Source of the DNA: Bedellia somnulentella
Lineage: Eukaryota > Arthropoda > Insecta > Lepidoptera > Bedelliidae
DNA length: 64,000 nucleotides
Reading direction: 5' to 3'
Assembly (NCBI GenBank): GCA_963576735.1
Contig: CAUYWD010000265.1
Location: 124,001 to 188,000 of the forward strand
Shown here in pieces: positions 2,559 through 45,108 of this stretch (position 1 is the stretch's first letter; every line of letters begins with the position of its first letter). Under the pieces are notes generated by a model that searched no databases, was not told the DNA's origin, and was given only the letters and a program-made list of their open reading frames with translations. The position numbers were made by a program, and so were the translations under genes.

Positions 2559-2638
2559 CCCCCACATGGTACAGCCTTGTCGTGGCGTGGGGGCTCAGTA
2601 GCCTCGGGCAATCCAGCCCGGGGTGAAGCCAATGTACC
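2559..2638 (+). ncRNA. HDV-like self-cleaving ribozyme (reference copy, E1)
   Basis: The nested double-pseudoknot order of HDV ribozymes is present. P1 is CCCCCAC 2559-2565 with GTGGGGG 2587-2593; J1/2 is AT; P2 is GGTACA 2568-2573 with TGTACC 2633-2638; P3 is GCC 2574-2576 with GGC 2584-2586, abutting P1'. L3 is TTGTCGT, and G2579 could form P1.1 with C2594. P4 is 2602-2609 with 2616-2623 (8 bp, loop AATCCA). J4/2 ends CCAA, putting the predicted catalytic cytosine at 2629, in the C-N-A-A context of HDV C75. Cleavage is expected before C2559, exactly at the telomere/element junction. HDV-like ribozymes are established at 5' ends of R2 and some other non-LTR elements; activity here is inferred. 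Confidence 0.88.
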
Positions 2639-2982
2639 GATTAGGCGTCGTTGTTGAGTTAGAACCTGGCGTTTGTACCACATTGGTCGGCCAGGTTCTG
2701 TCTTGCGTTCGGTCCCAGCTACCCACATTGGGCGGCTGGTGATGGAGGGGCGGCGGTGTCTTCATGATACCGTCGGCCAAACCGTAAGCCTACTTCGGTG
2801 GGAACGGGGGCTCAGGCCACTGAGGTCTGGGCTGCGAGGAAGAAAACCTCTATAAAAAATTACCCCAATCCCAAGGTTGGCGTGCCGAGGGGATGAGTGT
2901 CTGGAGGGGGTCCAGTGCCTAGCGTCAGGGAAGGGGGGAAAGCTCGATGGTAGGCCGAGGGTAAAGCCTACCAAAACAAATT

Positions 2983-5109
2983 ATGGATAAGGAATTTTTA
3001 AATAGTACTACCCAGGTGGGTCCCCGAAAGGGGGAATCCCACCCTTCCGCTTCTGCGGAAGGCGCCCCCGCGTATTCTGGGGGGGGCAAAAACTTCCAAA
3101 CCAACGACCTTACTGCATGTTTAATGGACTTCGATAATAGCGACGTGGCTGTGGAGATTTTGAGCGACAGCTCATATGCCTCCACATCAAACAGGAATGG
3201 CGCAAGCCAAGAGAATAGGTCAGATTCCCGGCGTAAGCGGACTTACAATGGATCTGAATCAGGATCTTCGGATTCTAACAATGAAGGACTTGAATCTGAT
3301 ACGGACCGTCAGCCGTCCATAACTTCAAGTAAGGCATCTGCCAAGAGAGGGCGCGGACGACCACCAACGACTGGCCAATACATTGGTATTGGAAAGGCCC
3401 GTGCGGAGGCTGCTGCAGCCAAAAGAGAAAGCTTCTTGCGGCAAGAAGCAGAAGAGCTCTCACAACGAGTGGAGAGATACCACTCTCTCCAGGCGAAGAA
3501 AAAGGCTGCTGCGTCAGAGACGATTATACCAGCAACTGAAAAGTGTGCCGCGGATTTGATGCAGTCCGTACAATACCAGATCGGCGAGATACTGCAGGTG
3601 GCACAGAAGTCAAGGGCGTTGAAGGGCACCTACATCAAGGTCCTAAAAGACGCTACAGCGGCAATTAAAGAGTCCTCTGAGGCTCTATTCGAACGGACAT
3701 CCTCTGAAGAAACGAAGCGTCTTCAACAAGACAATGCTCGTTTGAGGGACGAGCTTCAGAGGATGAAAACTAATAACGAGGGTCTCCGGCAAGAGCAAGT
3801 AGCCTTACGAAAGGAGGTTGATGCTCTTCGGGTAGACGTGCAGAGCGCACGCCCAAATATAGAGGTAGGGGATGAATTTGCTCGTTCGATCATGGTCCAA
3901 ATTGGAACCATGGTCAACGCCAGGCTTGAGGCCCTCGAAACGCGTCTTTTGCCGGAAAAGCGCTTAAGACCACCCCTGGCTGCGGATAAGAGGGTCTCCG
4001 GAACGGAAACAGTCCAAACCAATGCCAAGGCAACAGAAGGACTACCCAAAAACAAAGGGAAAGGGAAGGGCAAAAAATCGTCTCTGCCTGCCCGTCCCCA
4101 ACACCCTGCTCCTATTAATTTGGCGCCGGTGGCTTCTTCTGTCCCTGGGACACAGCCTACTCCAGGCCCATCAAATGCCGCCCCTACAGAAACATGGGCT
4201 ACGGTGGTACGCCGTGGGAAAAAGAAGGTGAGGTCGGCTGCTACCGCTCCCGCTAGAGCTCCTCAAAAGTCTGCTGGGAAAGTGGCAGCAAATAAGCTAA
4301 AAGTACCGCGTTCTGCCGCGGTAATTATTAGTCTTAATGATGATGCTGCCAAGAAAGGAGTTACGTTGGGTAACATAATGTCCGATGCCAAGCAGCAGAT
4401 TGACATATCGGCCCTAGGCATCGGGCCAATGCGGATTCGGTCAGCCATTACTGGGGCTCGAAAATTGGAGGTTTCTGGAGCAGAGGCTCAAGAAAAAGCT
4501 GACACGCTGGCCGCAAAACTCCGAGCAGTACTGCCTTCCGAGTTGGTTAGGGTCTCGCGGCCGACAAAAACGGAGGCGGTGCGCTTGGTTGGTATAGACG
4601 ACTCAGTTACCGAGGCTGAAATCATTGCGGCCATTGTTAGATGTTCCGGTTGCACAGGGCCAGAAATCAAAGTTGGTCGAATCACAGTGGGTAACAGGGA
4701 TTGCTCGGTTTTAGTTCGATGCCCTCTGGTGGCGGCCAAAAAGCTCGCCGAAGCCAAACGCTTGCAGGTTGGCTGGGGCGAAGTGGTGGTGCAACTCCTT
4801 CCACGGAGAGAACTGCGCTGTTATAAGTGTCTGGAGCCTGGCCATGTGCGAGCTACCTGCACTTCCGAAGTGGACCGCAGCAGCAACTGCTATCGCTGCG
4901 GTTTGCCAGGGCACTTAGCGGAGTCTTGCTCGGAGAAGCCATGCTGCCCTCTCTGCAAAGCAGCCAGCCGGTCATTTGACCACATGGTAGGGGCCAAATC
5001 TTGTAAAGCAAAAATGCTTCCAAGAAAAACGAAGACGGCCACAAAAAAGGTGGTCACTCGTAGTTGCCCTGGAAACGGGCCAGTGGAGGAACCAATGGCC
5101 GTTAATTAA
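2983..5109 (+). CDS. ORF1 protein (Gag-like RNA-binding protein), E1
   Basis: 708 residues. The N-terminal leader (TTQVGPRKGESHP...AYSGGG) overlaps a folded RNA element at 3015-3087. An AT-hook-like KRGRGRPP sits at about residues 121-128. A Leu-rich heptad region follows at about 240-290 (RLQQDNARLRDELQRMK), then a KGKGKGKK stretch, WATVVRRGKKK, and a conserved domain before the zinc knuckles. Three knuckles lie at about 613-680: two CX2CX4HX4C and one CX2CX8HX6C. In the R1 clade ORF1 packages the RNA and, for SART1, directs it to telomeres. The stop TAA at 5107-5109 overlaps the ORF2 ATG. The start at 2983 is the first ATG after the 5' UTR. Confidence 0.92.
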   Translation: MDKEFLNSTTQVGPRKGESHPSASAEGAPAYSGGGKNFQTNDLTACLMDFDNSDVAVEILSDSSYASTSNRNGASQENRSDSRRKRTYNGSESGSSDSNNEGLESDTDRQPSITSSKASAKRGRGRPPTTGQYIGIGKARAEAAAAKRESFLRQEAEELSQRVERYHSLQAKKKAAASETIIPATEKCAADLMQSVQYQIGEILQVAQKSRALKGTYIKVLKDATAAIKESSEALFERTSSEETKRLQQDNARLRDELQRMKTNNEGLRQEQVALRKEVDALRVDVQSARPNIEVGDEFARSIMVQIGTMVNARLEALETRLLPEKRLRPPLAADKRVSGTETVQTNAKATEGLPKNKGKGKGKKSSLPARPQHPAPINLAPVASSVPGTQPTPGPSNAAPTETWATVVRRGKKKVRSAATAPARAPQKSAGKVAANKLKVPRSAAVIISLNDDAAKKGVTLGNIMSDAKQQIDISALGIGPMRIRSAITGARKLEVSGAEAQEKADTLAAKLRAVLPSELVRVSRPTKTEAVRLVGIDDSVTEAEIIAAIVRCSGCTGPEIKVGRITVGNRDCSVLVRCPLVAAKKLAEAKRLQVGWGEVVVQLLPRRELRCYKCLEPGHVRATCTSEVDRSSNCYRCGLPGHLAESCSEKPCCPLCKAASRSFDHMVGAKSCKAKMLPRKTKTATKKVVTRSCPGNGPVEEPMAVN
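3015..3087 (+). promoter_or_regulatory. Folded RNA element overlapping ORF1 start (E1)
   Basis: Outer stem GGTGGG (3015-3020)/CCCACC encloses a TCCCC-GAAA-GGGGG hairpin. Next come hairpin CTTCCGC-TTCT-GCGGAAG and a final CCCCC...GGGGG hairpin over GCGTATTCT. Homologous positions in other groups have different stem sequences that still pair. A role in initiation or RNA packaging is inferred. Confidence 0.65.
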
Positions 5110-8100
5110 TGGCCATAAAGTTTCTCCAAGCAAACCTCAACCACTGTGCAACTGCTCAGGATTTGTTTTTCCAAAGCACAGCACAGTGGTTGATTCAAGT
5201 GGGGGTAATCTCGGAGCCGTACTTTGTCCCCGCGGGGGTGAATTGGGTGTCGGACCTAAATGGCGTGGCGGCAATCACAGTCAGCCGGTCATCAGGGCTG
5301 CTGCTGGAGGAAGTAGTTCGCGGCAGAGGTTTCGTTGCGGCACGGATAGGGGAGATAGTAGTCATCTCGATTTACTTCTCCCCCAACGATTCCTTTGCCA
5401 ATTTAGAGATCTTTCTACAAGAGCTGGAAGCAGCAGTCCTGCAACGTCGCCCTCGCCAAGTATTGGTTGCTGGAGACTTCAACGCCAAATCGGTGGTCTG
5501 GGGTTCTCCAGCGACAGAGCGCTTCGGCGAGGCAGTGGTGGAGTGGGCGACGACCACGGGTTTGGCCGTGGCCAACAGAGGTTCGACACCTACATGTGTT
5601 AGGCATAACGGGAGTTCGATCGTAGATTTGACCTTCGCAACTCCCGGTCTCTGGGCCCTGATCGAGGGCTGGAGGGTTATCACGGACGTGGAGTCGTACT
5701 CGGACCATCGGTACATCCGGTTCGAGATCTCCACGTCCCAGCCAGCCACCTTACCGGGTGGACCGACGGCAAATGGGGGACCTAGGTGGGCCCTCACCAG
5801 GCTGGACAAAGAAATGATGGTGGAAGCATCTATCGTCCAGTCCTGGATGTCACCGCCGCCCGGTGCGGCTGTCGACATCAATGCCGAGGTGAGCTGGTTT
5901 CGTGATGCCCTCACAGAGATATGCGATGCATCGATGCCCCGCCAGGGACCGATGGCTCCGAGACGCCAAGTGCACTGGTGGAGCGCCGAAATTGCTCAAT
6001 TGCGATTAGCAAGTATGACGGCGCGCCGCCGGTGCAAAAGAAATCGAAGGAGGAGGATCCGGGACGAGGCGGAACAGCTTCGCCGCGTGGAAATATTCCG
6101 CGAGGCAAAGAAGGCCCTGAAGATAGCAATAATCAGGGCCAAAGAAGCCTCGCGAAGGGAGTTACAGGAGGCTCTAGATAACGATCCATGGGGGCGCGCC
6201 TACAGAATGGCTAGACAAAGGCTGCGACCATGGGCGCCCCCACTTACGACGAGCCTCCAGATCCACGTGGTGGAAAACGTGGTTTCGACCTTGTTCCCGG
6301 ACAGGGGGGCGCATCAGCCTCCCGTAATGGCTCTTGAGCGGCAGCGTTCGGCGGACGAACATCTCGTCCCCGAAGTGACCGAACCGGAGTTGGCGGTGGC
6401 CATAGAGCGCCTGAAGAAAAAGAAGACAGCCCCGGGACTGGATGGAATTCCGGGGCAGGCGTGGGTAGTGGCGCTCAAACCGTTCCTGGAGGAGAGGTTT
6501 CGGGGCCTGTTCTCCACGTGCCTGGAACAAGGTGTGTTTCCAGAGCCGTGGAAGACGGGTAAACTCGTGCTTCTGCGAAAGGACGGGCGCCCCGCTGACT
6601 CCACAGAACCCTCAGCTTTTCGGCCGATAGTCCTGCTCGACGAGGCGGGCAAACTTTTGGAAAGGGTGATCTCTGCCCGCATCGTCGAGCACTTAGAGGG
6701 AGCTGGTCCGAATCTCTCGGACCAGCAGTTCGGTTTCAGGCGCTGTCGCTCGACAGTTCATGCAGTTCTGCGGGTCCGCTCAATAGCGGACGAGGCGGTC
6801 TCCCAGGGCGAGGTGGTGTTGGCGGTCTCTCTCGACATCAAAAACGCCTTCAACACCATGCCCTGGTCCTGTATAGCGGAGGCACTGAAATATCACGAAG
6901 TGCCTCCGTACTTGAGGAGGATTCTCGGGTCGTACCTCTCGGATCGGTTCATCACGTATCCGCTTCGGGAGGGTTGGGGTCGCCGCGAAATGTCTTGCGG
7001 TGTTCCACAGGGCTCAGTCTTGGGCCCGCTCCTGTGGAACATTGGCTACGATTGGGTCCTGCGCGGCGCCAACCTCTGGGGTGTCCAACTCACCTGCTAT
7101 GCAGACGACACCCTAGTGACGGCCCGAGGAAAGACGTACAGAGAGGCCGCCATCCGCGGAACTGCGGGTGTGGCGCACGTGGTGCGCCGTATAAGGTCGT
7201 TGGGTCTAGAAGTGGCCCTGAACAAATCCGAGGCCTTGTGGTTCCATGGGCCTCGGAATCGTCCGCCGGTAGGGGAATCCGCCATCGTTGTGGGTGGCGA
7301 GAGGATTGCCGTCGAGTCCACGTTAAAATACTTGGGACTAACACTCGACGGCCGTTGGACGTTTCGCGCTCACTTCGAGCGTCTGGGGCCCCGGTTGATG
7401 GTTGCGGCAGCTGCACTCAGCAGACTCCTGCCGAACCTTGGGGGCCCTGGGAGCGCGTGCAGGCAGCTCTACATGGGGGTCGTACGGTCTATGGCCATGT
7501 ACGGCTCCCCAGTGTGGGCTGACGCCCTGAAGGGGTCGAATGCGGCGCTTCTTCATGCGCCGCAACGGCTCATGGCTGTCAGGGCGTCAAGGGGATACCG
7601 CACGGTATCCCGAGAGGCTGCCTGCCTAATGGCGGGTTCAAAGCCGTGGGAGTTAGACGCGCAAGTTCTCGCGTCGACCTTCCACTGGCGTGAAGAACGG
7701 CGGACACAGGGCCACTGGCCCACGGATCGGGAGACTGCGGCCTACAAACGGGAGGTCGAGTCAGCTGCCCTGGAGGCATGGGCACTCCGGCTGGGTCAGC
7801 CGAGTGCGGGGCACAGGACGGTGGAGGCGATCCTCCCCGTCTTTACGCAGTGGTTGCAGCGAGAGCACGGATCTCTGAGCTTTCGGCTTACACAGGTCCT
7901 TTCCGGGCATGGTTGCTTTGGGAAGTACCTGTGGCGGCTGGGCAAAGAGCAGGCTGCTCGTTGCCACCACTGCCTAAATTGCCCCGAAGAGACGGCGCAG
8001 CATACATTGGAAGTGTGCCCAGCGTGGGATGAAGAGAGGGCAGCACTCCGGGCGGTCATCGGCCCGGATCTCTCTCTGCCAGCCGTAGTCGCGGCTATGG

Positions 8101-8240
8101 TGGAGAGACCCGATGCGTGGGCTGCGGTGGCCTCCTTTTGCGAACAAGTCATCAATGCAAAGGAGGCCGCCGAACGAGAGAGGGAGTTGGCGGACCCAAC
8201 TAGAAGGGGACGTCGTCGCCGCGGTGTCAGGAACCACTGA
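5109..8240 (+). CDS. ORF2 polyprotein: APE-type endonuclease + reverse transcriptase + zinc knuckle, E1
   Basis: 1043 residues. The endonuclease occupies about residues 1-220: QANLNHC, ISEPYF with Glu near residue 36, AGDFNAKS, SIVDLTF and the YSDHR motif. The RT follows: APGLDGIPG, FRPIVLLDEAGK, motif A LDIKNAFNT (Asp 576), motif B GVPQGSVLGPLLWN, motif C YADD (Tyr 664), and LKYLGLTLDG. A C-terminal CX2CX9HX4C knuckle spans about 952-970. The protein would nick the CCTAA strand, prime on it and copy the element RNA in the nucleus. It starts at the TAATG overlap with ORF1 (5107-5111), the stop-start pentamer shown to couple ORF2 translation in Bombyx SART1. All catalytic motifs are intact. 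Confidence 0.95.
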   Translation: MAIKFLQANLNHCATAQDLFFQSTAQWLIQVGVISEPYFVPAGVNWVSDLNGVAAITVSRSSGLLLEEVVRGRGFVAARIGEIVVISIYFSPNDSFANLEIFLQELEAAVLQRRPRQVLVAGDFNAKSVVWGSPATERFGEAVVEWATTTGLAVANRGSTPTCVRHNGSSIVDLTFATPGLWALIEGWRVITDVESYSDHRYIRFEISTSQPATLPGGPTANGGPRWALTRLDKEMMVEASIVQSWMSPPPGAAVDINAEVSWFRDALTEICDASMPRQGPMAPRRQVHWWSAEIAQLRLASMTARRRCKRNRRRRIRDEAEQLRRVEIFREAKKALKIAIIRAKEASRRELQEALDNDPWGRAYRMARQRLRPWAPPLTTSLQIHVVENVVSTLFPDRGAHQPPVMALERQRSADEHLVPEVTEPELAVAIERLKKKKTAPGLDGIPGQAWVVALKPFLEERFRGLFSTCLEQGVFPEPWKTGKLVLLRKDGRPADSTEPSAFRPIVLLDEAGKLLERVISARIVEHLEGAGPNLSDQQFGFRRCRSTVHAVLRVRSIADEAVSQGEVVLAVSLDIKNAFNTMPWSCIAEALKYHEVPPYLRRILGSYLSDRFITYPLREGWGRREMSCGVPQGSVLGPLLWNIGYDWVLRGANLWGVQLTCYADDTLVTARGKTYREAAIRGTAGVAHVVRRIRSLGLEVALNKSEALWFHGPRNRPPVGESAIVVGGERIAVESTLKYLGLTLDGRWTFRAHFERLGPRLMVAAAALSRLLPNLGGPGSACRQLYMGVVRSMAMYGSPVWADALKGSNAALLHAPQRLMAVRASRGYRTVSREAACLMAGSKPWELDAQVLASTFHWREERRTQGHWPTDRETAAYKREVESAALEAWALRLGQPSAGHRTVEAILPVFTQWLQREHGSLSFRLTQVLSGHGCFGKYLWRLGKEQAARCHHCLNCPEETAQHTLEVCPAWDEERAALRAVIGPDLSLPAVVAAMVERPDAWAAVASFCEQVINAKEAAERERELADPTRRGRRRRGVRNH

Positions 8241-8540
8241 CGCCGCGGCCATTGGTAGGGTCTTCTAAGACCACGGAGCCCCCATATGGCGTGCGACGCT
8301 GAAAGTGGGGCTCCACGGCAGGAGGCGCGCAAAGGGGGGCTATTTGCGCGCTAGCCACCCTGCCAAGAAGGACGGACGCTCAAGTGGTTCTGAGCGTCCG
8401 TTACTATGTGCGGGTAATAGGGGGGTTCTGCTCCCCCCTTTGTAGGAATGCCGTGAGGCAAAGGTGCGAGGGGTCCGTGGTAAATTACCTTCGGTAACAG
8501 AGGCCAGGGACCCCGACCATTGTGCACCGAGAAGGACCAC

Positions 8541-8621
8541 CGTGGGGTTTTAGTCAGTAAGAGTCTGACATATCCCCGTCGTTTCCCCCAGCGGCGGGGA
8601 ATCCATGAGGATTTCCCCACG
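8541..8621 (+). other. 3'-terminal cloverleaf (reference copy, E1)
   Basis: Closing stem GTGGGG (8542-8547)/CCCCAC (8615-8620) holds three hairpins: GTCAG 8553-8557/CTGAC 8565-8569; CCCCGTCG 8574-8581/CGGCGGGG 8592-8599; AATCC 8600-8604-ATGA-GGATT 8609-8613. It ends at the A-tail. The 3' UTR of Bombyx SART1 is known to be needed for retrotransposition, so this is the likely RT recognition site. Confidence 0.8.
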
Positions 8622-8646
8622 TAAAAAAAAAAAAAAAAAAAAAAAA

Positions 8647-8661: not shown

Positions 8662-8740
8662 CCCCCACACGGTGCAGCCTTGTCGTGGCGTGGGGGCTCA
8701 GTAGCCCCGGGTTGGTCACCCGGGGTGAAGCCAATGCACC
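8662..8740 (+). ncRNA. HDV-like ribozyme, E2
   Basis: P2 is GGTGCA/TGCACC here, against GGTACA/TGTACC in E1: a paired change. P4 is CCCCGGGT/ACCCGGGG with loop TGGTC. P1 and P3 match E1. Confidence 0.86.
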
Positions 8741-9211
8741 AAGGGTCCGCTTCTCTCCTCTGTTTTCAGAGTGAGTAGTAAGCGGACTGGGTGAGGAGAA
8801 AACCTCGTTAAAAAATCAAGGGAACTCGTAACCCTGGCAGTCTTGCACTTCCAGGGCCGAGGGTCTTGCCGCGGCGTAGGCTTGACCGCGAGGAGTAAAC
8901 CTCTATAAAAAATCGGAAGAGGAGTAAACCTTCCGCAAAAATCCGAGGATAAAACCTCGTTAAAAAATCCGTGAGGCGGTGGGCTGCGACCGGCGGGTTG
9001 CAGTCTGCTACTCCGCAAGGAGAACCTCGAGGGGGTGGGCGTTTGGAACTTGTGGCCCAAACGCCTGCGGTGCTGAGGAAGCACAAGGAGGAGTGGGGGA
9101 CTTTAAGTCCCCCGAGATGGGCTGCTTTTTGCAGCAGGTGCGTGGAGTCTGTGGATGTTGCCTATGGTAAAGTCGCCAGGGACTCCACACATGTGTACCA
9201 TAGTTGGCCAC

Positions 9212-9292
9212 CGTGGGGTTTTAGTCGGTAAGAGTCCGACATACCTTCGTCACCCCGCCGGGTGACGTCGGATCCATGAGGATTTCCCCACG
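9212..9292 (+). other. 3'-terminal cloverleaf, short-element version (E2)
   Basis: Same closing stem as E1. First hairpin is GTCGG/CCGAC (GTCAG/CTGAC in E1); second is CGTCACC/GGGTGACG; third is GGATCC-ATGA-GGATT-like. Confidence 0.75.
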
Positions 9293-9331: not shown

Positions 9332-9412
9332 CCCCCACATGGTGCAGCCTTGTCGTGGCGTGGGGGCTCAGTAGCCTCGGGCAATCCAGTCCGGGGTGAA
9401 GCCAATGGCATC
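9332..9412 (+). ncRNA. HDV-like ribozyme, E3
   Basis: P2 is GGTGC (9341-9345) with GCATC (9408-9412), including one G-U pair and one extra base in J4/2. P4 is 8 bp with a G-U pair. This is a weaker P2 than in E1, so activity is less certain. Confidence 0.7.
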
Positions 9413-14871: not shown

Positions 14872-15169
14872 TACTTTCCTCACACCCTGTAGCGTTGGGT
14901 GGAAGAATAGACCTACAGCATTTTCCCGCTTGGCGTAAGAGGCAGCCTAAAGGAACAACAGTAGATCGTAGGCGTCCGATGTAGGGACATTAGACGTCAT
15001 ACCAGCGATCTCGAGAAGTAAATAACAATCTTCGATCGATTGCTATCAAGCTGGAGGTCTGGGGACTATAAATTCCCCAGTGAAGTGCCCCATAGGGCGC
15101 GTACAAGGGAGTCATTGGTGTGTTCCTTGGAGATCCCTATGACTCCCAACAAGTGCTGAGGTTGGCCAA

Positions 15170-15255
15170 CGAGGGGGTTTTAGTGGGTAGAAATCCCACA
15201 TAACCCGAACATGTCCCTATCATGTCCGGGTATCTTTCTGAAGATTTCCCCCTCG
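15170..15255 (+). other. 3'-terminal cloverleaf, group B version (E3)
   Basis: Closing stem CGAGGGGG (15170-15177)/CCCCCTCG (15248-15255). Hairpins are GTGGG/CCCAC, ACCCG-ACATG/CATGT-CGGGT and ATCTT/AAGAT. The architecture matches group A while nearly every helix has a different sequence. Confidence 0.78.
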
Positions 15256-15519: not shown

Positions 15520-15599
15520 CCCCCACATGGTACAGCCTTGTCGTGGCGTGGGGGCTCAGTAGCCTCGGGCAATCCAGCCCGGGGTGAAGCCAATGTACC
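15520..15599 (+). ncRNA. HDV-like ribozyme, E5
   Basis: Identical in all helices to the E1 copy (P2 GGTACA/TGTACC; P4 with loop AATCCA). Confidence 0.87.
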
Positions 15600-15946
15600 G
15601 ATTAGGCGTCGTTGTTGAGTTAGAACCTGGCGTTTGTACCACATTGGTCGGCCAGGTTCTGTCTTGCGTTCGGTCCCAGCTACCCACATTGGGCGGCTGG
15701 TGATGGAGGGGCGGCAGTGTCTTCATGATACTGCCGGCCAACCCGTAAGCCTACTTCGGTGGGAACGGGGGCTTAGGCCACTGAGGTCTGGGCTGCGAGG
15801 AAGAAAACCTCTATAAAAAATTACCCCAATCCCAAGGTCGGCGTGCCGAGGGGATGAGTGTCTGGAGGGGGTCCAGTGCCTAGCGTCAGGGAAGGGGGGG
15901 ATAGCTCGATGGTAGGCCGAGGATAAAGCCTACCAAACAAAACAAA

Positions 15947-18208
15947 ATGGATCAAAAGGCAATTTTCAATAGTACTACCCAGGTGGGTCCCCGAAAGGGG
16001 GAATCCCACCCTTCCGCAGCCGCGGGAGGCGCCCCCACGTATTCTGGGGGGGGCAAAAACTGCCTCGCAGGTTCTTTATCCAAGGGCCTGCGTAAAAACA
16101 ACGACAACAGCTTTTCTTTAATGGACGATGATTCAGCGACTAATATGGACTATTCCTATATGGGAAGTATTGAGGACATAGAACTGGCTTCAGGCACAGA
16201 CTTGGCTGTAGCTGAGTCTGAAGAAGACTATAATACACCGGCTACGGGTCAAAGTACCCGGTGCAATTCTGAATGCAGAAAGCGGTCAAGAATCGGTGAA
16301 GAATCTGGTCCATCAGATTCGGATACCAGTAGAGACTCGGTGCCAGGTAGTACCCTTTCCAAAAGAGGTAGAGGGAGACCACCCACTTCCGGCAAATTTA
16401 TTGGTGTTGGCAGAGCTAGGGCCGAGCTAGCAGCTGCAAAGAGGGAAGATTTCCTACTTCGGCAGCAAAAAGAAAACGAGGACCTATCCGACAAAATGGA
16501 AAAGTCTCACAAGAGAAAGGAAAGAACTCGGGCAAAAGTAGTCATTGACGCAACACCAGCTGGAGATAAAATTGCTGCTGATTTGGCAAAAATAGTAAAG
16601 AGAGAATTAGATGTAATCCTTGGTGTGGCAAATAGGTCAAGGAATCTAAAGGGTACATTCGTAAGGGACCTTCAGAAAGCTGCTAAATCAATAAGCGATG
16701 CATCTGAGGCTCTTGTAGAAAGAACTTCTTCTGAAGAAGTGAGGAAACTTCAAGAAGATAACGCAAGACTAAAAGAAGAACTCAAAAATATTAGAGAATT
16801 CCATGATCGGGAACAAGCGTCTTTACGCTCTGAATTGGTTGCTCTAAGAGAGGAAATTAGGGGCCAGCGATCGAACCCTGAGCCCATAGGAAACGAGGAT
16901 TTTATCCGCTCTGTCATGGTACAAGTAGGTACCATGATGAACGCTCGACTGGAGGCATTAGAGGAGCGCCTTCTACCTAGAAAGATTATACGCCCGCCGC
17001 TGGCAGCGGACAAAAGGCCTTTGAGTACGCCTCATAACACAGTACCTGCCGTACTTGCAGATGCAACTGCACCTGCAGCGGAGGTCGGTAAAGAAAAGGG
17101 GAAGAGCAAGGGAAAAGGGAAAGGGAGTGGGTCAACTGTCACCAACAAAACTCTCCCAGTAACTTCCTCCCAACCTAAGAAAACATCAGTCACAAAAGGC
17201 GGCCAAAAATCAGGCTCGCAGGTGCAACCAACCGCTAGCACATCTGTGACACCGCAGGTAGAGACCTGGTCCACAGTGGTACGTCGTGGTAAAAAGACGA
17301 AATCAGTAAGTGCTGCTCCTGCAATGCCTAAAACTAAACCAACTAAAGCCACAAAGTTACGCACTCCTCGCTCGGTAGCGGTGGTAATCACGTTGGAACA
17401 GGGGGCCAAGGAAAGAGGTGTCACCTATAAGACAATAATGACCGAGGCTAAGGAAAAACTTGACTTGCTTAGTCTTGGGATAGGAGGAGCCCGAATGAGA
17501 ACGGGTATTACTGGAGCCAGGAAAATTGAGCTTCCTGCATCTCAAGCAGAAAAGGCTGATGCGTTAGCAGAAAAGCTCCGAGAGATTCTCCCGCTGGATA
17601 TTGCACGGGTCTCCAGGCCAATGAAATGTGCTGAATTGCGAATAACAGGACTAGATGACTCCGTAACTCCAAAAGAAGTGGCGGAAGCGGTAGCCAGAGA
17701 CGGTGGTTGCTCCGTAACTGATGTGTCTGTTGGGAATATTAGAGAGGTCCCGCGAGCACTAGGCGCTGTCTGGGTTCGCTGTCCGGTTGAAGCAGCGAAA
17801 AAACTCACAAACGCCAAATCAATCTTGGTAGGATGGTCAGAGGCACGAGTACGTCTTCTGCCCCAAAGAGAGCTTAGATGCTATAAATGCCTCTTAGTCG
17901 GACACGTTGGTGTCAACTGCACTTCGAGCATTGATCGGAGTAACACATGTTTCCGCTGTGGCCAGCCCGGTCACAAAGCTAACTCATGCGTTAATAAACC
18001 ATCGTGTCCAGTCTGCATAGATAGCTCGAAACCGGGCGAACACAGAATTGGCGCTAAATCTTGCATGGCAACCAAAAACGGCAGCAAGAAATCCAAAAAG
18101 AGTGGGAAAACTTCAGAAACAGTTCACCCATCTGCATCCACACTGCAACATGCAATTGTACGTGTGGAGCGAATGGAAGAAGGGGAACCCGTAGCCGTCG
18201 TTAATTGA
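15947..18208 (+). CDS. ORF1 protein, E5
   Basis: 753 residues. The leader NSTTQVGPRKGESHPS overlaps an RNA fold at 15982-16054. It then has an acidic segment, AT-hook-like KRGRGRPPTSGK, a coiled-coil region (RKLQEDNARLKEELKN), a KGKGKGSG stretch and WSTVVRRGKK. Three knuckles lie near the C-terminus: CYKCLLVGHVGVNC, CFRCGQPGHKANSC and CPVC...H...C. It ends in TGA at 18206-18208, overlapping the ORF2 ATG as TGATG. Compared with E1 it has the same N-terminal leader type but a distinct body. Confidence 0.92.
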   Translation: MDQKAIFNSTTQVGPRKGESHPSAAAGGAPTYSGGGKNCLAGSLSKGLRKNNDNSFSLMDDDSATNMDYSYMGSIEDIELASGTDLAVAESEEDYNTPATGQSTRCNSECRKRSRIGEESGPSDSDTSRDSVPGSTLSKRGRGRPPTSGKFIGVGRARAELAAAKREDFLLRQQKENEDLSDKMEKSHKRKERTRAKVVIDATPAGDKIAADLAKIVKRELDVILGVANRSRNLKGTFVRDLQKAAKSISDASEALVERTSSEEVRKLQEDNARLKEELKNIREFHDREQASLRSELVALREEIRGQRSNPEPIGNEDFIRSVMVQVGTMMNARLEALEERLLPRKIIRPPLAADKRPLSTPHNTVPAVLADATAPAAEVGKEKGKSKGKGKGSGSTVTNKTLPVTSSQPKKTSVTKGGQKSGSQVQPTASTSVTPQVETWSTVVRRGKKTKSVSAAPAMPKTKPTKATKLRTPRSVAVVITLEQGAKERGVTYKTIMTEAKEKLDLLSLGIGGARMRTGITGARKIELPASQAEKADALAEKLREILPLDIARVSRPMKCAELRITGLDDSVTPKEVAEAVARDGGCSVTDVSVGNIREVPRALGAVWVRCPVEAAKKLTNAKSILVGWSEARVRLLPQRELRCYKCLLVGHVGVNCTSSIDRSNTCFRCGQPGHKANSCVNKPSCPVCIDSSKPGEHRIGAKSCMATKNGSKKSKKSGKTSETVHPSASTLQHAIVRVERMEEGEPVAVVN
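15982..16054 (+). promoter_or_regulatory. Folded RNA element overlapping ORF1 start (E5)
   Basis: Same outer and first stems as E1. The second hairpin is CTTCCGC-AGCC-GCGGGAG, so both loop and stem changed while pairing is kept. Confidence 0.62.
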
Positions 18209-21200
18209 TGGCTATGAGGTTACTCCAAGTGAATCTCAACCACTGCGCCACTGCTCAAGATCTGTTTTTCCAGAGCATGGCGGAGTGGTTGATAGAAGTG
18301 GGGGTGGTCTCGGAGCCATACTTTGTCCCTGCAGGGGTAAATTGGGTGTCGGACCTGGATGGCGTGGCGGCGATTACCGTCAGCCAGTCATCAGGACTGC
18401 TGCTTGAAGAAGTGATTAGAGGCAGGGGTTTCGTCTCAGCTCGTGTCGGGGAAATAGTAATCTTTTCTGTATACTTTTCCCCAAATGAAACCCTTGCCAA
18501 CTATGAAGTGTTTATGCAGGAGGTAGAAGCAGCAGTCCTGCAACGCTCTCCTCGTCAAGTCCTGGTCGCCGGAGATTTCAATGCCAAGTCTGTGGCTTGG
18601 GGATCTCCGGCCACTGATCGTTTTGGCGAGACTGTGCTGGAGTGGGCGACGTCCACGGGCGTAGCCATCGTAAATAGGGGCTCGACACCCACATGCGTTC
18701 GGCATAACGGGAGTTCGATTGTCGATCTGACTTTCGCAACTCCCGGTCTCTGGGCCCTTATCAAGGGCTGGAGAGTCATCACAGACGTGGAGTCGTTTTC
18801 GGATCACCGATACATCCGTTACGATCTCTCCACGTCCCGTGCAGCCACCTTACCAGGCGGTCAGTCGACAAATGGGGGACCCAGATGGGCCCTCAGCAAG
18901 CTGGACAAAGAAGTAATGGTCGAGGCTGCTATTGTCCAGTCCTGGTTGGCACCGTCTGGTACAGCAGTCGACATCCGTGCTGAGGTGGACTGGTTTCGTG
19001 AGGCTCTCACAGAGATTTGCGATGCGTCTATGCCCCGAGTGGGACCTATGGCTCCGAGACGCCAAGTGCACTGGTGGTCTGCCGAAATTGCTCGCCTACG
19101 ACAGGCGAGCATCGTGGCACGCCGCCGGTGCAAAAGACAGAGGAGGAGAAGACCCCGGGACGAGGCCGAGGAACTCCGCCGCGTGGAGGTATTTCGCGAG
19201 GCGAAAAAGGCCCTGAAAATTGCTATCATCAGGGCCAAAGAAGAGTCAAGAAATGAACTCCGGGAGGCTCTTAATAGAGATCCGTGGGGGCGCCCCTATA
19301 GAGTGGCGATGCAGAGGCTCCGCCCCTGGGCTCCCCCACTCACGACGAGCCTCCAGCCCCACGTGGTGGAGAATGTCGTCTCGGCATTGTTCCCGGATAG
19401 GGGGGCGCATCAGCCCCCCGTGATGATATGTGAGCGGCAACGTCCGGTGGACGACCGGCTGGTTCCCGAGGTGACGGAGCCGGAGTTGGCGGTGGCTATC
19501 GAGCGCCTCAAAGCAAAGAAGACAGCCCCGGGTCTAGATGGAATCCCGGGGCAGGCTTGGGTCGTGGCGCTCAAGCCCTTCCTTGAAGTGAGGTTCAGGG
19601 GCCTGTTTTCTGCGTGCCTGGAAGAAGGAGTATTTCCAGAGCCGTGGAAAACGGGCAAACTCGTTTTGTTACGGAAGGAGGGGCGCCCCGCCGACTCCAT
19701 TGAGCCTTCGGCATTTCGGCCAATCGTTCTGCTCGACGAGGCGGGCAAGCTTTTAGAGAGGGTGATCTCTGCCCGTATCGTCGATCATCTCGAAGGAACC
19801 GGTCCAAACCTCTCGGACCACCAGTATGGTTTTCGGCGTTGTCGTTCAACTGTTCATGCGGTTCTGCGGGTCCGCTCAATAGCGGACGAGGCGGTCTGCC
19901 AGGGTGAGGTGGTATTGGCGGTCTCCATCGACATCAAAAACGCCTTTAACACCATGCCCTGGTCTTGCATCGAGGAGGCACTGAAGTACCATGACGTGCC
20001 TCCCTACATCAAGAGGATTCTCGGGTCGTACCTCTCGGATCGGTACATTACGTATCCGCTTCGGGAGGGTTGGGGTCGCCGCGAAATGTCTTGCGGTGTT
20101 CCACAGGGCTCAGTCTTGGGCCCGCTCCTGTGGAACATCGGCTACGACTGGGTCTTACGCGGCGCCAATCTCTGGGGTGTCCAACTCACCTGTTACGCAG
20201 ACGACACCCTAGTGACGGCCCGAGGCAAGACCTACAGAGAGGCCGCCATCCGCGGAACTGCGGGAGTGGCGCACGTGGTGCGCCGAATAAGGTCGTTGGG
20301 TCTGGAAGTGGCCCTGAATAAGTCCGAGGCCATGTGGTTCCATGGTCCTCGGAACGGTCCGCCGGTTGGGGAATCCGCCATCGTCGTGGGTGGCGAGAGG
20401 ATTGCCGTCGAGTCAAGTTTGAAATACCTTGGATTAGTGCTCGACGGCCGTTGGACGTTCCGCGCTCACTTCGAGCGTTTAGGGCCCCGGTTGATGGTTG
20501 CGGCAGCTGCACTCTGCAGACTCCTGCCGAACCTTGGGGGCCCTAGGGACGCATGCAGGCAGCTCTATATGGGAGTCGTACGGTCCATGGCTATGTACGG
20601 CTCCCCAGTGTGGGCTGACGCCCTGAAAGGGTCAAACGCGGCGCTTCTTCATGCGCCGCAACGACTCATGGCTGTCAGGGCGTCAAGGGGATACCGCACG
20701 GTATCCCGAGAGGCTGCCTGCCTAATGGCGGGTTCAAAGCCGTGGGAGTTAGACGCGCAAGTTCTCGCGTCGACCTTCCACTGGCGTGAAGAACGGCGGA
20801 CACAGGGCCACTGGCCCACGGATCGGGAGACTGCGGCCTACAAACGGGAGGTCGAGTCAGCTGCCCTGGAGGCCTGGGCACTGCGGCTGGGTCAGCCGAG
20901 TGCGGGGCACAGGACGGTGGAGGCGATCCTCCCCGTCTTTACGCAGTGGTTGCAGCGAGAGCACGGATCTCTGAGCTTTCGGCTTACACAGGTCCTTTCC
21001 GGGCATGGTTGCTTTGGGAAGTACCTGTGGCGGCTGGGCAAGGAGCAGGCTGCTCGTTGCCACCACTGCCTAAATTGCCCCGAAGAGACGGCGCAGCACA
21101 CATTGGAAGTGTGCCCAGCGTGGGACGAAGAGAGGGCAGCACTCCGGGCGGTCATCGGCCCGGATCTCTCTCTGCCGGCCGTGGTCGCGGCTATGGTGGA

Positions 21201-21336
21201 GAGACCCGATGCGTGGGCGGCGGCGGCCTCCTTTTGCGAACGAGTCATGCTTGCAAAGGAGGCCGCCGAACGAGAGAGGGAGTTGGCGGACCCCACCAGA
21301 AGGGGCCGTCGTCGCCGCGGTGCCAGGAACCCTTGA
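18208..21336 (+). CDS. ORF2: endonuclease + reverse transcriptase, E5
   Basis: 1042 residues from the ATG at 18208, the last base of the ORF1 TGA; a TTG just upstream extends the frame but is an unlikely start. Endonuclease motifs VSEPYF, AGDFNAKS and FSDHRY, RT motifs LDG/IDIKNAFNT/YADD and the CX2CX9HX4C knuckle are all intact. The C-terminal half is nearly identical to E1, E8, E9 and E16; the first 400 residues differ more from E1. Confidence 0.94.
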   Translation: MAMRLLQVNLNHCATAQDLFFQSMAEWLIEVGVVSEPYFVPAGVNWVSDLDGVAAITVSQSSGLLLEEVIRGRGFVSARVGEIVIFSVYFSPNETLANYEVFMQEVEAAVLQRSPRQVLVAGDFNAKSVAWGSPATDRFGETVLEWATSTGVAIVNRGSTPTCVRHNGSSIVDLTFATPGLWALIKGWRVITDVESFSDHRYIRYDLSTSRAATLPGGQSTNGGPRWALSKLDKEVMVEAAIVQSWLAPSGTAVDIRAEVDWFREALTEICDASMPRVGPMAPRRQVHWWSAEIARLRQASIVARRRCKRQRRRRPRDEAEELRRVEVFREAKKALKIAIIRAKEESRNELREALNRDPWGRPYRVAMQRLRPWAPPLTTSLQPHVVENVVSALFPDRGAHQPPVMICERQRPVDDRLVPEVTEPELAVAIERLKAKKTAPGLDGIPGQAWVVALKPFLEVRFRGLFSACLEEGVFPEPWKTGKLVLLRKEGRPADSIEPSAFRPIVLLDEAGKLLERVISARIVDHLEGTGPNLSDHQYGFRRCRSTVHAVLRVRSIADEAVCQGEVVLAVSIDIKNAFNTMPWSCIEEALKYHDVPPYIKRILGSYLSDRYITYPLREGWGRREMSCGVPQGSVLGPLLWNIGYDWVLRGANLWGVQLTCYADDTLVTARGKTYREAAIRGTAGVAHVVRRIRSLGLEVALNKSEAMWFHGPRNGPPVGESAIVVGGERIAVESSLKYLGLVLDGRWTFRAHFERLGPRLMVAAAALCRLLPNLGGPRDACRQLYMGVVRSMAMYGSPVWADALKGSNAALLHAPQRLMAVRASRGYRTVSREAACLMAGSKPWELDAQVLASTFHWREERRTQGHWPTDRETAAYKREVESAALEAWALRLGQPSAGHRTVEAILPVFTQWLQREHGSLSFRLTQVLSGHGCFGKYLWRLGKEQAARCHHCLNCPEETAQHTLEVCPAWDEERAALRAVIGPDLSLPAVVAAMVERPDAWAAAASFCERVMLAKEAAERERELADPTRRGRRRRGARNP

Positions 21337-21754
21337 TGCACCGCGGCCTTTGGTAGGGTCTTCTTAGACCACGGAGCCCCCATATGGCGTGCGTCGCCGA
21401 AAGTGGGGCTCCACGGACAGGAGGCGCGCAAAGGGGGTTATTTGCGCGCTACCAAACCCTGCCCGAGATGAAGCGGACGCTCAGGTGGCCCTGAGCGTCC
21501 GCTGCAAGCTGAAGGTGAATTTAAAGGGGGGTGGAATAACACCCTCCCGTGAGTCACGCCATTTGGCGTAGGTGCAAGGGGTCCGAGGAATATTACCTCC
21601 GGTGAAGTCTTCAAGGACCCCTAACACAGTTATGCACCGAGAAGGGCCACCGTGGGGTTTTAGTCAGTAAGAGTCTGACATATCCCCGTCGCAACCCCCA
21701 TGCGGCGGGGAATCCATGAGGATTTCCCCACGTAAAAAAAAAAAAAAAAAAAAA

Positions 21755-21768
21755 GGTTAGGTTAGGTT
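21755..21768 (+). repeat. Telomeric spacer, 14 bp
   Basis: GGTT(AGGTT)2. Confidence 0.95.
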
Positions 21769-22400
21769 CCCCCCACACGGTGCAGCCTTGTCGTGGCGTG
21801 GGGGCTCAGTAGCCCCGGGCTGGTCACCCGGGGTGAAGCCAATGCACCAAGGGTCCGCTTCTCTCCTCTGTTTTCAGAGTGAGCAGTAAGCGGACTGGGT
21901 TAGGAGAAAACCTCGTTAAAAAATCAAGAGAACTCGTAACCCTGGCAGTCTTGCACTTCCCGGGCCGAGGGTCTTGCCGCGGCGTAGGCTTGACCGCGAG
22001 GAGTAAACCTCTATAAAAAATCGGAAGAGGAGTAAACCTTCCGCAAAAATCCGAGGACAAAACCTCGTTAAAAAATCCGTGAGGTGGTGGGCTGCGACCG
22101 GCGGGTTGCAGTCTGCTACTCCGCAAGGAGAACCTCGAGGGGGTGGGCGTTTGGAACTTGTGGCCCAAACGCCTGCAGTGCTGAGGAAGCACAAGGAGGA
22201 GTGGGGGACTTTAAGTCCCCCGAGATGGGCTGCTTTTTGCAGCAGGTGCGTGGAGTCTGTGGATGTTGCCTACGGTAAAGTTGCCAGGGACTCCACACAT
22301 GTGTACCATAGGTGGCCACCGTGGGGTTTTAGTCGGTAAGAGTCCGACATACCTTCGTCACCCCGCCGGGTGACGTCGGATCCATGAGGATTTCCCCACG

Positions 22401-22457: not shown

Positions 22458-23271
22458 CCCCCACATCCCCCACACGGTGCAGCCTTGTCGTGGCGTGGGG
22501 GCTCAGTAGCCCCGGACTAGCCATCCGGGGTGAAGCTAATGCACCGAGGTGGCGTCGCTCCCAGTATCCCTCTCATTAGGAGAGGGGACAGGGGAAGCGA
22601 CGCAAATCGTAACCCTAGCAACAGTAGCCGCTGTTGCTGGGACCGAGGGCCTTGCCGTCACTGGCAGGTCGCGAGGAGTCAACCTCTATAAAAAATCGGA
22701 GGAGAAAACCTCGTTAAAAATCATGGGGTGGGTTGCTCCCGTTTTCCTTTCGAGGTGTAGAGAGGGAACGGGAGCAAGAGGGGAACTCGTAACCCTGGCA
22801 GTATTGCACTACCAGGGCCGAGGGTCTTGCCGAGGTGTAGGCTTGACCGCGAGGAGTAAACCTCTATAAAAAATCGGAAGAGGAGTAAACCTTCCGCAAA
22901 AATCCGAGGACAAAACCTCGTTAAAAAATCCGTGAGGTGGTGGGCTGCGACCGGCGGGTTGCAGTCTGCTACTCCGCAAGGAGAACCTCGAGGGGGCGGG
23001 CGTTTGGAACTTGTGGCCCAAACGTCTGTGGTGCTGAGGAAGCACAGAGGGGAGTGGGGGACTTCATGTCCCCCGAGATGGACGCCGAGAGGCGTGGTGC
23101 GCGGGATTGGAGGTAGACTGCCACGGGCGTTCCCACCAATCCCGCATCAAAGCACCGAAGATGGCCACCGTGGGGTTTTAGTCGGTACGAGTCCGACATA
23201 CCTTCGTCACCCCGCCGGGTGACGTCGGATCCATGAGGATTTCCCCACGACAAAAAAAAAAAAAAAAAAAA
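22458..23271 (+). mobile_element. E7: short non-autonomous element, type b
   Basis: 814 bp. It starts with a 9-nt partial 5' end (CCCCCACAT, 22458-22466) before the real ribozyme. A GCGTCGCT...AGCGACGC hairpin follows, then two copies of a block of the type CGTAACCC-hairpin-GGGNCCGAGG-GCGAGGAGT-AACCTCTATAAAAAATC (about 22607-22699 and 22789-22881), and further GAGG/CCTC modules to about 22928. Cloverleaf 23169-23249; A-tail 23252-23271. No ORF with family resemblance is present. Confidence 0.85.
22467..22545 (+). ncRNA. HDV-like ribozyme, E7
   Basis: P2 GGTGCA/TGCACC, extendable by a C-G pair. P4 is CCCCGGA/TCCGGGG. J4/2 ends CTAA, still C-N-A-A. It lies downstream of a 9-nt duplicated 5' end, so cleavage would remove that duplicate. 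Confidence 0.84.
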
Positions 23272-23275: not shown

Positions 23276-23355
23276 CCCCCACATGGTACAGCCTTGTCGT
23301 GGCGTGGGGGCTCAGTAGCCTCGGGCAATCCAGCCCGGGGTGAAGCCAATGTACC
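23276..23355 (+). ncRNA. HDV-like ribozyme, E8
   Basis: Same helices as E1. Only GGTT and an A-tail lie upstream, so read-through RNA from E7 would be cut directly at this junction. Confidence 0.87.
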
Positions 23356-23706
23356 GAGTAGGCGTCGTTGTTAAGTTAGAACCTGGCGTTTGTGTCGTAT
23401 CGGTCGGCCAGGTTCTGTCTTGCGTTCGGTCCCAGCGACTGTCCACATTGGGCGGCTGGTGATGGAGGGGCGGCAGTGTCTTCATGATACTGCCGGCCAA
23501 CCCGTAAGCCCACTTCGGTGGGAACGGGGGCTCAGGCCACTGAGGTCTGGGCTGCGAGGAAGAAAACCTCTATAAAAAATTACCCCAATCCCAAGGTCAG
23601 CGTGCCGAGGGGATGAGTGTCTGGAGGGGGTCCAGTGCCTAGCGCAGGGGTAGGGGGGGTTAAGCTCGATGGTAGGCCGAGGGTAAAATTGCCTACCAAA
23701 ACATGA

Positions 23707-25842: not shown

Positions 25843-25844
25843 TA

Positions 25845-28800: not shown

Positions 28801-28973
28801 ATCTCTCTCTGCCGGCCGTGGTCGCGGCTATGGTGGAGAGACCCGATGCGTGGGCGGCGGCGGCCTCCTTTTGCGAACGAGTCATGCTTGCAAAGGAGGC
28901 CGCCGAACGAGAGAGGGAGTTGGCGGACCCCACCAGAAGGGGCCGTCGTCGCCGCGGTGCCAGGAACCCTTGA
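25845..28973 (+). CDS. ORF2: endonuclease + reverse transcriptase, E8
   Basis: 1042 residues. Endonuclease Glu 36 (VSEPYF), AGDFNAKS, SDHH (His in place of the usual Arg after SDH), IDIKNAFNT, YADD and the terminal CX2CX9HX4C knuckle are present. The start lies in TAATAATG (25840-25847), where two in-frame ORF1 stops precede the ATG. It is very similar to the ORF2 of E16, E9 and E5. Confidence 0.94.
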   Translation: MAMRFLQVNLNHCATAQDLFFQSMAEWLIQIGVVSEPYFVPSGVNWVSDLDGVAAITVSQSSGLLLEEVVRGRGFVSARVGEIVIFSIYFSPNETLANYEVFMQEVEAAVLQRSPRQVLVAGDFNAKSVAWGSPATDRFGEVVLEWATATGVAIVNRGSTPTCVRHNGSSIVDLTFATPGLWALIKGWRVITDVESFSDHHYIRYDLSTSRAATLPGGQSTNGGPRWALSRLDKETMVEAAIVQSWVAPSGTAIDIRAEVDWFREALTEICDASMPRVGPMAPRRQVHWWSAEIARLREASIVARRRCKRQRRRRPRDEAEELRRVEVFREAKKALKIAIIRAKEESRKELREALNRDPWGRPYRLAMQRLRPWAPPLTTSLQPHVVENVVSALFPDRGVHQPPVMICERQRPVDDQLVPEVTEPELAVAIERLKAKKTAPGLDGIPGQAWVVALKPFLEVKFRGLFSACLEEGVFPEPWKTGKLVLLRKEGRPADSIEPSAFRPIVLLDEAGKLLERVVSARIVNHLEEIGPNLSDHQYGFRRCRSTVHAVLRVRSIADEAVSQGEVVLAVSIDIKNAFNTMPWSCIEEALKYHDVPPYIRRILGSYLSDRYITYPLREGWGRREMSCGVPQGSVLGPLLWNIGYDWVLRGANLWGVQLTCYADDTLVTARGKTYREAAIRGTAGVAHVVRRIRSLGLEVALNKSEAMWFHGPRNGPPVGESAIVVGGERIAVESSLKYLGLVLDGRWTFRAHFERLGPRLMVAAAALCRLLPNLGGPRDGCRQLYMGVVRSMAMYGSPVWADALKGSNAALLHAPQRLMAVRASRGYRTVSREAACLMAGSKPWELDAQVLASTFHWREERRTQGHWPTDRETAAYKREVESAALEAWALRLGQPSAGHRTVEAILPVFTQWLQREHGSLSFRLTQVLSGHGCFGKYLWRLGKEQAARCHHCLNCPEETAQHTLEVCPAWDEERAALRAVIGPDLSLPAVVAAMVERPDAWAAAASFCERVMLAKEAAERERELADPTRRGRRRRGARNP

Positions 28974-29389
28974 TGCACCGCGGCCTTTGGTAGGGTCTTC
29001 TTAGACCACGGAGCCCCCATATGGCGTGCGTCGCCGAAAGTGGGGCTCCACGGGCAGGAGGCGCGCAGAGTGGGGTTATCTGCGCGCTACTCAACCCTGC
29101 CCGAGAAGGGCGGACCCTCAGGTGGCCCTGAGCGTCCGCTGCTTGGTGATGGCAAAAAGGGGGGTACCAAAAACCCCCTATTGAGGTACGCCACAAGGCG
29201 TTAGGTGCTGGGGGTCCGAGGAATATTGCCTCTGGTTAAAGTCTTCAAGGACCCCCAAACTGTATGCACCAAGAAGGGTCACCGTGGGGTTTTAGTCAGT
29301 AGAAGTCTGACATATCCTCGTCGCACCCCCATGCGGCGGGGAATCCATGAGGATTTCCCCACGAAAAAAAAAAAAAAAAAAAAAAAAAA

Positions 29390-29408: not shown

Positions 29409-29488
29409 CCCCCACATGGTACAGCCTTGTCGTGGCGTGGGGGCTCAGTAGCCTCGGGCAATCCAGCCCGGGGTGAAGCCAATGTACC
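29409..29488 (+). ncRNA. HDV-like ribozyme, E9
   Basis: All helices as in E1; preserved despite the damaged coding capacity of this copy. Confidence 0.87.
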
Positions 29489-29839
29489 GAGTAGGCGTCG
29501 TTGTTAAGTTAGAACCTGGCGTTTGTGTCGTATCGGTCGGCCAGGTTCTGTCTTGCGTTCGGTCCCAGCGACTGTCCACATTGGGCGGCTGGTGATGGAG
29601 GGGCGGCAGTGTCTTCATGATACTGCCGGCCAAACCGTAAACCTACTTCGGTGGGAACGGGGGCTCGGGCCACTGAGGTCTGGGCTGCGAGGAAGAAAAC
29701 CTCTATAAAAAATTACCCCAATCCCAAGGTCGGCGTGCCGAGGGGATGAGTGTCTGGAGGGGGTCCAGTGCCTAGCGTCAGGGAAGGGGGGGGATAGCTC
29801 GATGGTAGGCCGAGGATAAAGCCTACCAAACAAAACAAA

Positions 29840-38294: not shown

Positions 38295-38375
38295 CCCCCA
38301 CATGGTGCAGCCTTGTCGTGGCGTGGGGGCTCAGTAGCCTCGGGCAATCCAGTCCGGGGTGAAGCCAATGGCATC
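38295..38375 (+). ncRNA. HDV-like ribozyme, E12
   Basis: Same weak P2 as E3 (GGTGC with GCATC, one G-U pair). Confidence 0.7.
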
Positions 38376-45097: not shown

Positions 45098-45108
45098 CCC
45101 CCACACGG

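Follow-up and report, generated by a model that had tools for sequence, protein, structure and literature searches.

HDV-like ribozyme motifs at the 5' ends of SART-like telomeric retrotransposons in Bedellia somnulentella: a probable means of trimming read-through RNA

HDV-like ribozymes have been described at the head of several non-LTR retrotransposons. The site-specific R2 element of Drosophila and other animals begins with such a fold, and in Drosophila R2 the trimming of the co-transcript at the junction has been shown. The R2 ribozymes have the same anatomy as the motif described below and tested activity, and short riders, the SIDEs, retain a functional ribozyme at the 5' end together with the 3' end (PMC3414825; PMC3774820). 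Several R2s cut up to 36 nt upstream, inside 28S. The L1Tc element of Trypanosoma cruzi likewise carries an HDV-like ribozyme of about 77 nt (Pr77) at its 5' end, and here promoter activity has also been described, promoter and ribozyme being combined in the 77 nt (PMC8256844). An eLife paper of 2024 (PMC11620745) lists HDV-like ribozymes in rDNA-specific R2, R4, R6, RTE, telomere-specific SART, Baggins and L1Tc, with reference to Ruminski 2011 and Weinberg 2019. The first-pass annotation of the present DNA had known of no such ribozyme in telomeric SART elements, and its claim of novelty fails in view of this list. The abstract of Ruminski et al. 2011 itself reportedly names SART. The telomere-specific SART ribozyme of that work, as reported in PMC11620745, agrees with the motif studied here in element family, 5' place, ribozyme class and proposed role.

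The window is the whole stretch of 64,000 nucleotides analysed, and the elements and motifs described in it lie on the + strand. The first motif occupies positions 2559-2638. It is preceded, 5' of the first element, by a telomeric (GGTTA)nGGTT tract at 2471-2558 (17.6 copies of GTTAG, 100% match), so that the predicted 5' cleavage product would end in GGTT. P1 (7 bp) pairs CCCCCAC (2559-2565) with GTGGGGG (2587-2593), and the predicted cut is just 5' of 2559. J1/2 is AT (2566-2567), replaced by AC in other subfamilies. P2 (6 bp) is formed by GGTACA (2568-2573) and TGTACC (2633-2638), its fourth base A2571 pairing with T2635; the 3' strand ends the motif, and similarity between representatives falls just 3' of it. 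P3 consists of GCC (2574-2576) and GGC (2584-2586) around L3, TTGTCGT (2577-2583). J1.1/4, CTCAGTAG (2594-2601), leads to the 8-bp P4 hairpin CCTCGGGC-AATCCA-GCCCGGGG (2602-2623; one U-G pair), which is followed by J4/2, TGAAGCCAA (2624-2632). The four helices P1, P2, P3 and P4 make a nested double pseudoknot in the HDV order, P3' running directly into P1'. The putative catalytic C is C2629, and C2629-C-A-A before P2' fits the HDV pattern of a J4/2 C followed by N-R-A. The first pair of P1 is C-G, where HDV has G-U. P1.1 is one G-C pair only (G2579-C2594), as the first-pass annotation had noted in naming it the weakest part; the adjacent pair would be U-U. L3 includes U-C-G, and in a comparison of letters only these are compatible with the L3 G/L3 U reverse wobble; the importance of L3 G in HDV-like ribozymes is treated in section 12 of PMC3774820.

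The five helices, their nested order, C-N-A-A before P2' and the position at the junction were all found at 2559-2638 and in 14 further elements of the window, which bears out the proposed structure. The window contains 18 element starts, and 15 of them open with the same motif of 79-81 bases; the other three (15341, 35639 and 52143) are 5'-truncated and motif-less. The elements stand head to tail within (TTAGG)n, and a poly(A) tract ends each of the 17 whose end falls in the window. Fourteen motifs lie 4-68 nt past the poly(A) of the preceding element; ahead of the first there are 88 bases of telomere repeat. At three or fewer mismatches the 24-base start has 16 matches in the window, all on the + strand, one of which (51432) is a 23-base partial copy ahead of 51455.

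The first motif heads an autonomous SART-like element (2559-8622) with ORF1 at 2983-5109 (CCHC), ORF2 at 5109-8240 (endonuclease, RT), a 3' UTR and then poly(A). Further autonomous elements begin with the copies at 15520-15599 (element 15520-21733), 23276-23355 (23276-29363), 45109-45188 (45109-51403) and 57741-57821. The copy at 29409-29488 opens an element (29409-35591) whose ORF1 is split in two ORFs, and that at 63902-63981 an element ending beyond the window. The copies at 9332-9412 and 38295-38375 belong to lineage B, and 57741 is lineage C. Six short non-autonomous elements also carry the motif, four of 631 nt (motifs at 8662-8740, in element 8662-9292, and at 21770-21848, 37634-37712 and 51455-51533) and two of 785-788 nt (22467-22545, 785 nt; 44271-44349, 788 nt). 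The anatomy is present in all 15 copies if we allow an extra G in P2' (9332, 38295, 57741), the loss of the first C (57741) and one A-C mismatch in P4 (44271). P1 has 7 bp throughout, with U-G as first pair in 57741. In the subfamily with J1/2 AC, L4 is shorter by one base and P4 has 7 pairs, or 8 including U-A. The 5' end had been annotated as exact, with the cut between GGTT and CCCCC; this is true of eight of the 15 starts, while the other seven junctions show one extra A (8662), one extra C (21770), one C fewer (57741), or 9, 9, 11 and 23 extra bases.

A general HDV descriptor, which was composed after the finding had been seen and was therefore not blind, gave 11 starts on the + strand of the window, each at a known motif, and none on the − strand. 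It skipped the three copies with an extra G in P2' (9332, 38295, 57741), and 63902 was outside its reach, too near the window end. From 652 dinucleotide-shuffled versions of the window (+ strand only) came 50 descriptor starts, or 0.08 per 64 kb. Among local dinucleotide shuffles the descriptor was matched at the exact first base in 1 of 1,781,288, and in 4 of 2,916,658 when CCCCC was held in place. A covariance model built from the 15 window copies matched those 15 at 103.5 bits or more, as it does by construction, and the next best of its 22 matches had 12.0 bits. In Rfam, no family reached its gathering score, and no HDV family appeared for the whole window at E 10. On two short stretches HDV families were the best hits and aligned with the motif end to end: RF02682 at 2559-2639 (13.9 bits, E 1.6, gathering 44), and RF00094 at 21768-21851 (14.9 bits, E 2.9, gathering 50) with RF02682 at 21770-21849 (13 bits, E 1.9). 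The structure lines of these matches contain no P2 pairs. All three scores are far below gathering. Plain MFE folding gave weak z-scores (−0.14 to −1.28 on six stretches) and favoured a fold without P1 at 21770; it cannot form a pseudoknot and is uninformative here.

In the same assembly (549 Mb, 486 contigs) the 24-base start has 783 exact matches, and the reversed pattern has none. Among 100 matches listed, 89 sit on contigs C1, C2, C3, C5, C7 and C8. Forty-two of these 89 are within 150 kb of a contig end and all 42 point outward; as copies within one array are not independent, they count as six contig ends. The remaining 47 are interior, and the other 11 of the 100 (C6, C9, C10) are separated from the contig ends by roughly 1 Mb or more. 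Interior copies that were read outside the C5 array described next mostly continue like the short riders. The 47 include a nine-motif array (G000:C5:20221253-20260611), about 0.73 Mb from the contig end and inward-pointing, which could be a buried telomere, an inversion or an assembly join. Distinct starts were roughly classified by the sequence before them: 74 were in telomeric context, 42 of these exact and the remainder with extra or altered bases, and 27 were in other context. A viral contig collection gave no pattern match and no protein relative, and the 17 loci of a second genome-contig collection, at 21-31% identity, were of no use here.

Sequence was taken for 60 of the 100 listed places, and apart from L040, which was without body, all 59 matched the covariance model R1. 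Fifty-four scored at least 93 bits over the full length, and five were lower (L072, 81.7; L064, 70.2; L048, 62.2; L057, 39.4; L051, 28.3 bits). Three of the low-scoring copies have internal ribozyme deletions (L048:101-154, L051:170-196, L057:101-160). We also looked upstream of 20 genomic ORF2s, our pick from 44 listed, and a nearly identical motif was found in 13 of the 20 stretches. It was absent from seven: L104, where the contig ends; L112, L117 and L118, in which no telomere tract lies within reach; L120, truncated at the telomere; L123, with other sequence; and L121. In L121, an ORF2-bearing element, only about the first 14 motif bases are left before a deletion. Both telomeric and interior sites are represented among L048, L051, L057 and L121.

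For pair covariation we used a 52-copy alignment (A5; 41 distinct copies), which excluded the three deletion copies, L064 and L072 (altered P1') and most identical duplicates. It includes 14 of 15 motifs that were located upstream of ORF2s, not picked by the 24-base start. Standard pairs fill 98.8% of the 1003 pair cells of the 41 distinct copies, a value biased for P1 and P3 because the other loci were picked by the 24-base start, which fixes the 5' strands of P1, P2 and P3 except at positions 9 and 13. When partners were slid by 1-3 columns the value was 35-49%. Four pairs are altered on both sides. Of 500 shuffles, none reached the observed percentage paired or the observed number of doubly changed cells; the covariation score was reached in 2, the number of pairs altered on both sides in 15 and that of further pair types in 328. 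The fourth P2 pair (the position of A2571-T2635) is GC in 30 distinct copies, AU in 9, GU in 1 and unpaired in 1, and the P1.1 pair is G-C in 40 and G-U in 1. In the window alone (9 distinct rows) covariation was not clearly beyond shuffles (34, 415, 116, 482 and 34 of 500 reached the five observed values). Covariation was not above shuffles either in alignment A3, from which P2 was omitted, so the pair evidence depends on all helices including P2.

From the sequence evidence, the motif at 2559-2638 and its 14 window copies are very probably a self-cleaving ribozyme of the HDV-like class, by which read-through RNA would be cut at the first base of CCCCC. The structure, the position and the read-through trimming proposed in the first-pass annotation are supported by sequence, chance figures, conservation and the comparison with R2. 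Within the motif, TCAGT (2595-2599), which we take to resemble an arthropod initiator, is unchanged in all 15 window copies. The ribozyme could double as an internal promoter, for which L1Tc Pr77 is a precedent (PMC8256844), but an initiator at TCAGT would start the RNA inside the motif with loss of about its first 38 bases, and we consider this double role unlikely. A promoter at the DNA level that starts at the first C, with the RNA structure incidental or secondary, could draw on the same TCAGT and the same L1Tc union of promoter and ribozyme. It would also suit R1 lineages outside 28S, for example telomeric ones, which suggest an own promoter, although PMC3414825 notes no direct evidence of one. 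Such a promoter has no need of a double pseudoknot and leaves the chance figures and the both-side pair changes unexplained; promoter motifs of SART and TRAS had moreover not been identified according to a 2016 review (PMC4700185), and this reading appears highly improbable.

Equally slight is the probability that the motif is a ribozyme fossil which no longer cuts and is bound by SART protein or aids translation. The weak P1.1, the C-G first pair and competing folds would be in keeping with a fossil, as would the binding of R2 protein to a pseudoknot in the 5' region of R2 RNA (PMC8256844). However, 51 of 52 aligned copies retain the C at the putative catalytic position of J4/2 (L055 has lost it), all 52 keep A-A two bases on, and the riders retain the motif although they have no ORF.

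Among five representatives the mean identity of the motif is 96% in columns 1-40 and 84% in columns 41-80, followed by 47, 32 and 25%, and farther on it varies from 0 to 77%. In 10-column steps the least conserved parts of the motif are L4 (68%) and P2' (69%, a value due partly to alignment gaps), and the first step beyond has 48%. The ORF2 protein of lineage B is 48-49% identical to that of lineage A and 48% to that of lineage C. Between lineages A and B the ORF2 DNA has 51-52% identity, compared with 95% for the motif. ORF1 of lineage B, for which 38295 alone was comparable, gave 29-35% identity. Since L4 is identical in lineages A and B, part of the conservation may reflect recent exchange rather than constraint, and the identity of this loop hints at some cassette exchange. 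That SART lineages recently swapped their 5' cassette, through template jumps or through conversion, and that this took the place of ribozyme selection would fit the identical L4, the contrast of motif and ORF2 protein, the fall in similarity just past P2' and the R2 template jumps on record (PMC3414825), but swaps do not account for the HDV anatomy, may hold alongside the ribozyme, and as a substitute for it have next to no probability.

Five proteins were subjected to domain search: zf-CCHC was found in both ORF1 products, and Exo_endo_phos_2 with RVT_1 in all three ORF2 products. For ORF2, 175 relatives were obtained at E 0.001 (7988 candidates scored). Among the 120 matches listed, those named by organism were mostly lepidopteran, including a Helicoverpa armigera protein (59% identical) and a Papilio xuthus reverse transcriptase (55%), presumably SARTPx; no protein in this set was labelled SART. 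The arrangement GGTT-element-poly(A)-GGTTAGG places the insertion between T and A of the (TTAGG)n strand, with the element sense along that strand; the SART insertion site is given in PMC7265360. We conclude from the sequence that the window elements are a SART-like family of the R1 clade. Unlike R2 they have two ORFs, and their target is TTAGG repeats and the tails of upstream elements, compared with 28S rRNA for R2. In B. mori telomeres only full-length elements were found according to a review (PMC4700185), whereas 3 of 18 are 5'-truncated in this window.

None of the six short elements has a + strand ORF of 200 codons. What they have in common with the autonomous elements in blastn matches above 60 nt is limited to some 80-130 nt at the 5' end and some 85-190 nt at the 3' end. 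In this they match the make-up of R2 SIDEs, with the 5' ribozyme and 3' end of an autonomous element and no ORF (PMC3414825, PMC3774820). They differ from R2 and R2/R1 SIDEs in lying in telomeric SART arrays with other sequence between the ends, and rider-type motifs also occur at interior genomic sites.

At the 3' ends, the terminal 300 nt contained neither AATAAA nor ATTAAA in 16 of 17 elements, an absence expected by chance in GC-rich sequence and so of little weight. The lineage-B 3' ends at 15169-15255 and 44133-44219 match RF00524, the R2 retrotransposon 3' UTR RNA, with 34.7 bits against a gathering score of 38 (E 0.0023 for the whole window, where 44133-44219 was listed, and 1.1e-5 for each on 311 bases). 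An R2-like 3' RNA on an R1-clade element was unexpected. Other SART 3' ends have GGGGTTTTAG and GAnGATTTCC in common. The terminal stem is maintained, both strands having changed to match: CGTGGGG/CCCCACG compared with CGAGGGGG/CCCCCTCG.

Extra bases at four of the 5' junctions were compared with the flanking elements. The 9 extra bases CCCCCACAT at 22458-22466 equal the start of the downstream neighbour 23276 (9/9), and together with AGGTT they form a 14-bp target-site duplication. The same 9 bases at 37625-37633 equal the start of neighbour 38295 (9/9) and again give 14 bp with AGGTT. A run of 11 extra bases, CCCCCACACGG, at 45098-45108 repeats the beginning of the downstream neighbour (11/11) and makes, with AGGTT, a duplication of 16 bp. 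These lengths count the A common to poly(A); R1 target duplications are 14 bp (PMC3414825). Among the 17 elements only 22467, 37634 and 45109 are followed by a single GGTT. Template jumps were ruled out as the source of the extra bases in these three of the four cases, because the bases equal the start of the downstream neighbour and only those elements are then followed by a single GGTT. The same two features indicate that a new insertion took place at the border of an already present element. The duplication is visible here because the target was not pure repeat, and would normally be hidden within telomere repeats. In the fourth case the 23 bases at 51432-51454 are a partial second copy of the ribozyme start and show no match (0/23) with the downstream flank of 51455, so the present neighbour does not account for them. 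The full motif follows the extra bases in every case, and a cut at the motif start would drop them in the next round. The loss of 5' junction variation was argued in this way for R2 (PMC3774820), and by prediction such variation is not passed on in the present elements either.

With the motif acting as a ribozyme, transcription would enter from upstream telomeric or neighbouring-element DNA. A polymerase coming from the subtelomere or from a copy farther upstream, and moving toward the end of the chromosome, would transcribe poly(A) and GGUUA repeats on its way. In the nascent RNA the first 80 bases of the element would fold, with C2629 of J4/2 taking part in catalysis, and cleavage beside the telomeric GGUU would free a CCCCC end with 5'-OH, the product being translated and reverse transcribed. 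As this product would start at CCCCC, preceding target duplications and extra bases would be lost in each generation. Co-transcript trimming, shown for Drosophila R2, is thus predicted here. For the short elements the same cut would serve, and they may reach the SART machinery via the common 3' end. An efficient cut would also give the upstream RNA a poly(A)-(GGUUA)nGGUU tail. In a SART1Bm construct without poly(A), addition of AGG raised accurate initiation from 36 to 76% (PMC7265360), so such a tail could matter.

A wider proposal, which we hold tentatively and regard as rather doubtful, is that SART parasitises telomere-directed (TERRA-like) transcription with one cut making two ends. Each cut would yield both the downstream copy's 5' end, CCCCC, and the upstream copy's 3' tail; this poly(A)-(GGUUA)n-GGUU tail could base-pair with the nicked strand of the telomere and position reverse transcription. 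As the arrays at contig ends are outward and head to tail, one long transcript could be diced at every ribozyme, the riders alike, and the cassette would be kept or traded across lineages 48% identical. The head-to-tail arrays toward the chromosome end, the motif-bearing short riders and the visible target duplications of 14-16 bp may be new; a literature search in titles, abstract starts and passages, with few subscription papers, found no telomeric SART riders and no account of one cut with two ends. A ribozyme at nearly every junction of the outward arrays makes the origin of unit-length RNA of telomeric SART elements directly testable, and if the ribozyme holds, it would tie telomere transcription to retrotransposon-based telomere maintenance.

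Two minor observations concern other parts of the window. Matches to mir-3389 (RF03780, gathering 75) of 50-68 bits were seen on the − strand at eight places, antisense to SART ORF2 or a remnant of it (6989-7055, 20085-20151, 27722-27788, 33949-34015, 35908-35976, 49763-49829, 56053-56119 and 62247-62313), so that this family may be a retrotransposon piece. Ahead of the array, 1-2470 has a GC content of 41% compared with 55%. This region contains a coding-like 36/144-bp tandem repeat (1046-1493). It also has an open frame (1715-2362), and we take the product of this frame to resemble the C-terminal part of a retroelement protein.
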